From the NCBI GenBank assembly GCA_903864935.1, contig CAIPHT010000004.1, positions 1 to 42,721 of the forward strand: a stretch of DNA of 42,721 bases, given 5' to 3'. The DNA is from Candidatus Vogelbacteria bacterium. GTDB lineage: Bacteria > Patescibacteriota > Minisyncoccia > Phycocordibacterales > XYD1-FULL-46-19. A program made the translations under genes and the position numbers. Position 1 is the stretch's first letter; each line of letters begins with the position of its first letter. Below the pieces are notes generated by a model. The model was not told the origin of the DNA, did not search any database, and was given only the letters and a program-made list of their open reading frames with translations. Positions 1,568 through 33,257 of the stretch are shown one piece after another.

Positions 1568-2893
1568 ATGGAAATTAAAAAACCAATAACTTCAGCCGCG
1601 AGCAAACTTGTCCTTAGGTTAAAAATTTTAGCGAAGGAAAAAGAAATTACTCGACGCAAGTTGGTGGTGACCGCGCGACAATTGGCGGTGACGGCCAGAG
1701 AAAAAGAAATTACTCGGCGCAAGTTGGCCGTGACGGCTCAAGAACTCAGAAGGTTGCATGCAACGCTAGAAAAGAAGGTCCTGCGTCGAACTAAAGATCT
1801 TGAGCAAATTCGCTCTAAGAATGAGGCCATCCTCACGAGCATTGGTGATGGCTTAGTGGTCGTCGATAAAGAGGGAAGGATAACTTATATCAATAAGTCC
1901 TTCGAAGAGATGCTGGGTTGGAAGTCGCAAGAGATATTGGGCAAGAGCATGGTTCAAGTCGTACCGCGAGAAGATCAAAATGGGATCGGGGTATTATTTA
2001 AAGAAAGAATTTTAACTCAAGTTTTGGCGGGGCAAAAATTTGTGGCCGATTTAACTAATCCCTTCTACTATATTCGCAAAGATAAGAGCCGTTTTCCTGT
2101 TAGTAGTATTGTCGCGCCGGTAATTCTTAATAAAAAAGTGGTGGGCGCGGTTGAGGTCTTCAGAGATATCACTAAAGAAAAAGAAATTGATAAAGCTAAG
2201 ACGGAGTTTGTCTCTCTCGCTTCGCATCAGTTGCGGACTCCGCTCTCGACCGTCAATTGGTATAGCGAGATGCTCTTGACCGGAGATGTTGGTGAGGTCA
2301 CCATCGATCAAAAAAAATATTTGGAAGAAATTTATAATGGCAACCAGCGCATGGTCGATCTGGTTAACACCCTTCTTGATGTCTCGCGCATTGAACTAGG
2401 GACTCTTGTTATTGAATTGAAGCCGACTGATATTGTGAAGCTCGCTCAGAATGTGATTAATGAACACAAACTTCAAATTATTGAGAAAAAAATTAAACTC
2501 CTGCCTTCATTTGAAGACAATATCCCGCTGATTAAAACTGACCCCAAACTGCTTCGTATGGTAATCCAAAATCTCTTGTCTAACGCTATCAAGTATACCC
2601 CCGATGGGGGGAGAGTCTCGATATCTCTTGCCTTGGAGGAAGAAGCCAACGTTGTCCTGACAATTGCTGATACCGGTTATGGCATACCAAAGAATCAGCA
2701 AAACAAAATATTTACCAAACTCTTTAGGGCTGACAATGTTATTGGGCGAGATACTGAGGGTACCGGCTTGGGCTTGTATATTGCCAAGTCAATTGTTGAG
2801 CAAGCGGGGGGGAAGCTGTGGTTCGAATCAAAAGAAAATCAGGGTTCGACATTCTATGCCACATTACCCTTAAGGAAGATTAAAAAGCATTAA
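1568..2893 (+). CDS. PAS domain sensor histidine kinase (HisKA + HATPase)
   Basis: PAS region (LTSIGDGLVVVDKEGRITYINKSFEEMLGW), H-box (LASHQLRTPLSTVNWYSEML), N/G boxes (NLLSNAIKYTPDGG, DTGYGIP, GTGLGLYIAKSI). Confidence 0.95.
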   Translation: MEIKKPITSAASKLVLRLKILAKEKEITRRKLVVTARQLAVTAREKEITRRKLAVTAQELRRLHATLEKKVLRRTKDLEQIRSKNEAILTSIGDGLVVVDKEGRITYINKSFEEMLGWKSQEILGKSMVQVVPREDQNGIGVLFKERILTQVLAGQKFVADLTNPFYYIRKDKSRFPVSSIVAPVILNKKVVGAVEVFRDITKEKEIDKAKTEFVSLASHQLRTPLSTVNWYSEMLLTGDVGEVTIDQKKYLEEIYNGNQRMVDLVNTLLDVSRIELGTLVIELKPTDIVKLAQNVINEHKLQIIEKKIKLLPSFEDNIPLIKTDPKLLRMVIQNLLSNAIKYTPDGGRVSISLALEEEANVVLTIADTGYGIPKNQQNKIFTKLFRADNVIGRDTEGTGLGLYIAKSIVEQAGGKLWFESKENQGSTFYATLPLRKIKKH

Positions 2894-26622: not shown

Positions 26623-26649
26623 CACTTCGTAGCCAAAGGCTACGAAGTG
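26623..26649. repeat. Perfect 12-bp inverted repeat (hairpin) with GCTACGAA motif
   Basis: CACTTCGTAGCC-AAA-GGCTACGAAGTG. Confidence 0.8.
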
Positions 26650-26660
26650 GATAACTTTTG

Positions 26661-26689
26661 TTGACAGTTAAATCAAAGTCTGATAAACT
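26661..26689 (+). promoter_or_regulatory. Strong sigma-70-like promoter with no downstream ORF before the next terminator
   Basis: TTGACA (26661-26666) - 17 nt - TAAACT (26684-26689). Confidence 0.75.
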
Positions 26690-26695
26690 CTTAGG

Positions 26696-26803
26696 AAGGT
26701 TAAGGATGTTGACGGTTAGATCGTAAGTGATAACTTTTCAATTTATTGATAGACATCCTTAGCCTTACAAAGAACCCAACCAGCAATGGTGGGGTTTTTT
26801 GTT
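26696..26803 (+). ncRNA. Candidate structured small RNA (~108 nt)
   Basis: Begins ~7 nt after the -10 box; stem AAGGTTAAGGATGT (26696-26709) / ACATCCTTAGCCTT (26753-26766) with one G-U pair; terminator ACCCAACCA-GCAA-TGGTGGGGTTTTTT; no ORF. Confidence 0.6.
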
Positions 26804-26816
26804 TCCCCGCTTCAGC

Positions 26817-26862
26817 CCCGCCAGACCTTGAGAGGCTGCCCAAAGGTCTGGCGGGTTATTAT
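26817..26862 (+). terminator. Hairpin with the same loop motif as the terminator at 26106
   Basis: CCCGCCAGACC-TTGAGAGGCTGCCCAAA-GGTCTGGCGGG then TTATTATTTT. Confidence 0.7.
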
Positions 26863-26905
26863 TTTATGTTATAATAAAAGTATTAATAAATAACCTAATA
26901 AAAAT

Positions 26906-32698: not shown

Positions 32699-33086
32699 AA
32701 AATGTTACTCTTTTAGACGGTCGTCAAAAATGGTAACATTTTCAAATCAAAATTTATTAACACCAGTGACGGTCGTCTGAAAGTGTAATATTTTTTGATA
32801 GTAATCTGGAAGCTGTAATTTGGAAGCCGAGCTCCCAAAACGGGGGAGCGTGTGTTGTAATTATAAGCCGGTAACACTCGTGACGGTCGTCAGCAATGTT
32901 ACCTTTTTGCCTGCAAGTTAAAACTTATGCCACTAACGTGAGATTTTTTAGTGCCTGGTTTTTTACTGAACAAAATTTACAATTGTAAAAAATGTTCAGT
33001 GATTTTTGTTTCTAACTATAATCTAACGACCGCATCAAAATAGTTAGTCTTAACAAAATATGGACGGCCGTCTGAGGGATGTTAAG
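32699..33086. repeat. Array of nested palindromes with core GACGG(T/C)CGTC (4 clear copies plus 1 degenerate inverted copy) and additional palindromes
   Basis: Cores at 32716-32725, 32768-32777, 32882-32891, 33063-33072; degenerate AACGACCGCA at 33025-33034; each centred between inverted arms. Confidence 0.85.
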
Positions 33087-33257
33087 AAGAATTTCTCGAG
33101 CTCCCTAGACGAAATTTAGGTGATGTGGTAGAACTGGAGTTAGATTGGGTCTGGTGCCTGATCGTTGAAATCGGACAAAGATGGGCTAGGGCTCGTCTGA
33201 CTCCACAAAAGACTCTTTCTAGGGAAAGAGGGGGCACTCAAGCCCAAAGGAGCGAAG

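Follow-up and report, generated by a model that had tools for sequence, protein, structure and literature searches.

A probable stand-alone small RNA gene from an undescribed structured-RNA family of Paceibacteria

A predicted RNA of ~108 nt, encoded in the 42,721-nt window (the whole stretch of DNA analysed here), is probably the product of a stand-alone small RNA gene and, judged by comparison of sequences, belongs to a so far undescribed family of structured RNAs in Paceibacteria (CPR). The host is a CPR (Patescibacteria) genome of about 825–828 kb in 20 contigs, 98.8% complete. At least 11 copies of the RNA occur in nine genomes from six families of the class: the window RNA, a truncated copy in the sister species (G001), three paralogues in G054 (G054a–c) and single copies in six further genomes. 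This count is a minimum, as the multi-genome searches score only part of the candidates. The family architecture comprises a closing helix (P1), a P2 arm with a GNRA loop, a P3 arm with a G-(C/U)-A-A loop, UA(G), the returning strand P1′ and a terminator; the core spans 71–80 nt, to which the terminator is added. A sequence-only reading had proposed that a compact, structured ncRNA is flanked here by a promoter and a terminator of its own, and the comparison supports it: promoter, +1, fold and abutting terminator recur across families, and the pairs covary. The predicted three-way junction with GNRA-capped arms, absent from that reading, is visible by comparison only.

Promoter, fold and terminator of the window RNA

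Table 1 Predicted features of the window RNA and its upstream region
Feature	Position in window	Strand	Basis or comparison
Upstream element GTGGATAAC, DnaA-box-like, 5 nt 5′ of the −35	26647–26655	+	Recurs in relatives
Sigma-70-type promoter TTGACA-17-TAAACT, extended −10 (TGA)	26661–26689	+	Site scan; G001 counterpart
ncRNA gene, predicted transcript ~108 nt	26696–26803	+	Folding, covariance models, genome-wide composite scan
P1, 5′ arm of closing helix	26696–26710	+	Pairing; covariation
Junction GAC	26711–26713	+	Comparison; GAY(A) or GAA in most relatives
P2 hairpin GGUUAGAUC-GUAA-GUGAUAACU	26714–26735	+	GNRA tetraloop at 26723–26726; GNRA here in 11 of 11 copies
P3 hairpin UCAA-UUUA-UUGA, shortened	26738–26749	+	GYAA-containing loop here in relatives
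Junction UA 5′ of P1′	26750–26751	+	UA or UAUA-like in 9 of 10 full copies
P1′, 3′ arm of closing helix	26752–26766	+	Pairing; covariation
Intrinsic terminator directly abutting P1′	26767–26802	+	Abutting terminator hairpin in 10 of 10 full copies

The promoter named in the sequence-only reading holds: TTGACA (26661–26666) and TAAACT (26684–26689), separated by a 17-nt spacer, give 10 of 12 consensus matches, the top site within the 1.4 kb scanned, and a TG one base 5′ of the −10 adds an extended −10. P1 starts ~7 nt downstream of the −10, at the predicted +1 as had been anticipated, and its far end abuts the intrinsic terminator; homologues have the same +1 position. The upstream element GTGGATAAC lies 4–5 nt ahead of TTGAC in the window, G001, G144 and G119, and takes the variant forms GTGCATAAC/GTGCACAAC in G731/G660. 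Promoters are harder to discern at G054a, G054b, G419 and G666, with the −10 present and the −35 weak or absent.

In other genomes of the order, GTGGATAAC or the DnaA-box-like TGTGGATAA sits just 5′ of a −35 at L004 (1490–1750), L012, L015 and L007, preceding another possible ncRNA (L004), rpoB (L015) and mraZ (L007). The DnaA-box-like box is perhaps a promoter upstream element in bacteria of this order. Only two GTGGATAAC-N-TTGAC sites were met in the host genome (G000), one at the window RNA and one at a second uncatalogued stand-alone RNA candidate (L228, G000:C16, ~2222–2323, minus strand; promoter region TGTGGATAACTTTTGAC). The latter has a three-way junction with a 10-bp closing helix, a GGG-CUUG-CCC arm, a CGGU/ACCG arm, UA before P1′ and an abutting terminator; a search with covariance model R3 (see below) did not recover it.

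Pairing of the closing helix was correctly foreseen, but not its dimensions: P1 has 15 bp with two G–U pairs around an inner region of 41 nt, where 14 bp with one G–U pair and ~43 nt had been given. The fold of 111 nt reaches −45.9 kcal/mol (z = −7.3), equalled by none of 200 shuffles, and the 71-nt core without the terminator gives z = −5.9. Mid-helix, P2 of the window RNA is mismatched and non-canonical. A composite scan of the whole 828-kb assembly found 493 terminator-like sites, 13 of which have an abutting long-range helix; the window RNA is top by far among these 13 (score 14.8; runner-up, 10.2). The longest ATG frame has six codons, as reported earlier; its possible product, a leader peptide MLTVRS, was rejected, given that ATG becomes ATA in G001 and other families do not preserve the frame.

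Two related hairpins of the type GGTC.GGCC(T)TTGAGAGGC.GCCCAAAG.CC.GACC flank the RNA region (window positions 26108–26148 and 26817–26855), and a similar hairpin lies at the equivalent place in G001; the element is repeated and terminator-like. Elsewhere in the window, the intergenic stretch 32700–33090 holds four copies of GACGGTCGTC / GACGGCCGTC, a near-palindrome, some within larger inverted repeats; these are possible operator sites.

Homologues and covariation

The sister species, Candidatus Vogelbacteria AlinenSediments bin-1675 (G001), has a syntenic homologue cut by a contig end. There the same neighbours, an ABC transporter permease and a 138-aa protein, precede GTGGATAACTTTTG-TTGACG-17-TATTAT and AAGGTTAAGGATATTGACGGT..., and the contig stops inside the RNA. 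The −35, the −10 spacing, the 5′ arm and the loop start persist, whereas the promoter spacer has diverged. The cupin begins another G001 contig, so synteny extends over the gap. A nucleotide search of 99 relatives gave nothing above noise except this sister species, and a GTDB scan with the cupin likewise returned the sister species only, on a contig starting just past the gap. Neighbour-protein synteny (138-aa protein and cupin homologues) revealed no adjoining RNA outside the genus, the conserved 5′-arm pattern matched no more often in 397 genomes than a reversed-pattern control, and an IMG/VR pattern scan produced a single match, within coding sequence.

The first covariance model (R1) found a match in G054, from another family. 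The G054 RNA folds unambiguously as P1–GACA–P2 (9 bp, GUGA loop)–AC–P3–UA–P1′, then a terminator, and the window RNA can be superimposed on this three-way junction with the same arms. R1 matches in G015 and G019 were rejected as carried mainly by the terminator, and later models were therefore built without it. R2, a model of the core with the terminator left out, matches three copies in G054, one in G144 and one in G119. R3 was built from G054a–c, G144 and the truncated G001 copy (a relative of the window's), with the window RNA and G119 withheld. With R3 the window RNA scores 30.9 bits (E 2.2e-6, in 58 kb) and the G119 copy 35.8 bits (E 7.9e-8). Across the complete host genome, this model matches the window RNA alone (E 3.1e-5), which is thus a single copy.

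Over 384 genomes of the class, R3 adds G731, G660 and G666 (one family) and G419 (families f96 and f110 for the four), at modest per-genome E values of 0.002–0.05 that alone are insufficient over so many genomes. We accepted these four because each is intergenic and has an abutting terminator, a GNRA loop on P2, G-C/U-A-A on P3 and a wholly different closing-helix sequence. The host has roughly one terminator in every 3.4 kb of strand, so four abutting ones are not a matter of chance. All true matches have an abutting terminator and fold better than their own shuffles. Covariance-model matches at L202, L211, L212 and L213, inside coding sequence and without family features, were rejected. The distribution is patchy: no copy was detectable in most searched genomes, among them 14 of the 16 from the family to which the window belongs. 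Conservation in relatives, on which the sequence-only reading had staked its claim, is borne out by covariance-model homologues in six families and by recovery of the window RNA with a model built without it.

The P2 loop is GUAA, GCAA or GUGA in all 11 copies, and the P3 loop, where known, contains GCAA or GUAA except in the window RNA. UGCAACA is identical between the P3 loops of G054 and G144; other families have other G-C/U-A-A loops. The window RNA shares P1, P2 with its GNRA loop, P3, the abutting terminator and the upstream promoter with the family, but its P3 loop is UUUA, outside the G-C/U-A-A pattern. As its P3 is 6 nt shorter while that of the sister G001 retains UUGUAAU, the window copy has lost the second loop; without the P3 GYAA loop and with mismatches in P2, it might be drifting.

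The comparative alignment that had been suggested for this RNA favours the fold. In alignment A15 (nine sequences, fitted to R3 and hence biased towards structure), 84.9% of cells are paired and both sides change at 18 of 28 pairs; covariation scores 0.436, a value reached by 0 of 500 shuffles (0.223 ± 0.022), and slid partners give at most 0.170. Double changes affect 11 of the 14 P1 pairs and four of the five P3 pairs. In P2 the two ends (GG/CC and the loop-closing C–G) are conserved, and several members are non-canonical mid-helix.

Comparison with known RNAs

No Rfam 15 family matches the window RNA at gathering score, only chance-level matches, far short of the cut-offs, arising at E ≤ 10, and the same is true of G054a. 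This is the outcome of the Infernal search of Rfam that had also been suggested, and it agrees with the earlier statement that the RNA is not 6S RNA, SRP RNA, tmRNA or RNase P RNA. RNase P RNA was not met in the ~725 of 828 kb covered by the host Rfam scan. In the limited set of literature searched, we found no description of the family.

Nearest in kind is LOOT RNA (RF03000), likewise a stand-alone structured sRNA, described from metagenomic sequence (PMC7779021). LOOT RNA has 121 positions in serial hairpins, whereas the window family forms a 71–80-nt three-way junction plus terminator; identity was rejected, the window RNA having no RF03000 match. The same genome does have an RF03000 match (74 bits) at L216 (G000:C3, 13392–13525, + strand). 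6S RNA also stands alone with mutually paired ends, but it is ~180 nt long compared with 108 and has a central bubble in a long duplex in place of the three-way junction; RF00013 (6S) does not match the window RNA at any score listed.

Proposed mode of action and rival explanations

The next downstream gene is convergent in seven of the ten full copies (G054c, G144, G119, G731, G660, G419 and G666; judged in G119 from ORFs only); the window RNA, G054a and G054b are the only ones followed by a codirectional gene. Neighbours vary, among them cupin/Nramp, a P-type ATPase, a membrane protein, MiaA, ThrS and others. Since the downstream gene is so often convergent and the neighbours differ, a cis-regulatory leader is unlikely, and the RNA is probably stand-alone and trans-acting rather than a leader or riboswitch.

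Sequence and comparison establish where the RNA begins and ends, its conservation, its independence from the adjoining genes and its fold, in which a three-way junction holds P2 and P3 and the terminator is stacked on P1. The RNA would be transcribed from the P1 5′ strand onwards and would act in trans. Its active part would be the fold and not an antisense stretch: the two tetraloop-capped arms may dock onto a protein or a larger RNA, giving a partner-binding or regulator-titrating RNA. GNRA loops are of a kind known to dock. We propose docking because both ends are sealed in helices, free bases are few and the loops persist while helix sequences turn over. Within the stand-alone reading, partner binding through the tetraloop arms has perhaps an even chance.

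The main rival to partner binding is a base-pairing sRNA whose exposed seed, possibly the P3 loop, would regulate mRNAs. In well-studied bacteria, stand-alone sRNA genes with strong terminators usually encode base-pairing regulators. The present gene has this layout, and the P3 loop sequence common to G054 and G144 would suit such a seed. We nevertheless consider base pairing unlikely: elsewhere the loop is swapped for other G-C/U-A-A loops, in the window RNA it is lost, unpaired bases are few and structure is what stays conserved.

It is very unlikely that the RNA is a cis-acting leader, either riboswitch or attenuator, for the cupin–Nramp operon that lies downstream (27 kb region), with P1–terminator as the off state. 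Same-strand genes do follow the window RNA (cupin and Nramp-like transporter) and G054a (cation P-type ATPase), and an aptamer-like three-way junction beside a terminator is reminiscent of the purine and c-di-GMP-I riboswitches, in which P1 closes such a junction. The c-di-GMP-I riboswitch also carries a GNRA arm. The window family, however, differs from these riboswitches in having no Rfam match and, with the downstream gene usually convergent, no cis target, which largely refutes a leader; G054b and G054c adjoin unrelated genes, the cupin has an extended −10 of its own (TGTTATAAT, near 26868–26876) and no antiterminator alternative is evident.

That the RNA is a divergent SRP RNA with P2 as domain IV is improbable in the extreme. 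P2 of some members (GGACC-GCAA-GGAAAAGCC) resembles the SRP tetraloop hairpin, the small SRP RNA (RF00169) is likewise small and stand-alone with a GNRA-capped purine-rich hairpin, and RF00169 matches in none of nine genomes, G000 likewise showing no match. Yet the window family has no Rfam match, the P2 of G054a is fully Watson–Crick and so misses the invariant SRP internal loops, and G054 holds three copies within one genome. Moreover, tblastn searches of G000 (E ≤ 1e-3; one query species) found no match to E. coli Ffh and FtsY, whereas four control proteins (TrmD, SmpB, FtsE and a sigma factor) do match. SRP identity was rejected on these grounds, and the host CPR genome may lack a signal recognition particle. 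The idea that there is no gene here but a chance hairpin, terminator or mobile palindrome is of equally negligible probability, palindromic repeats being common in the host genome but the folding z-score, conserved promoter and terminator and single genomic copy all opposing it, and cross-family covariation refuting it.

On the stand-alone reading that we favour, the ncRNA family is new, but its general kind is known. A further-reaching version, which we regard as rather unlikely, is that of a widespread Paceibacteria-specific RNA, far commoner than the models detect, whose two GNRA-type loops at the junction are read by a dedicated partner, either a protein or the ribosome; if true, the RNA would serve housekeeping or regulation in this lineage specifically and have no counterpart in model bacteria. 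The CPR makes up a large share of bacterial diversity, is hard to culture and has scarcely described ncRNAs. An uncatalogued family now has a covariation-supported predicted fold, set boundaries and 11 sequences from six families, and reading raw sequence for a promoter, helix and terminator can reveal RNA families too diverged for sequence search.
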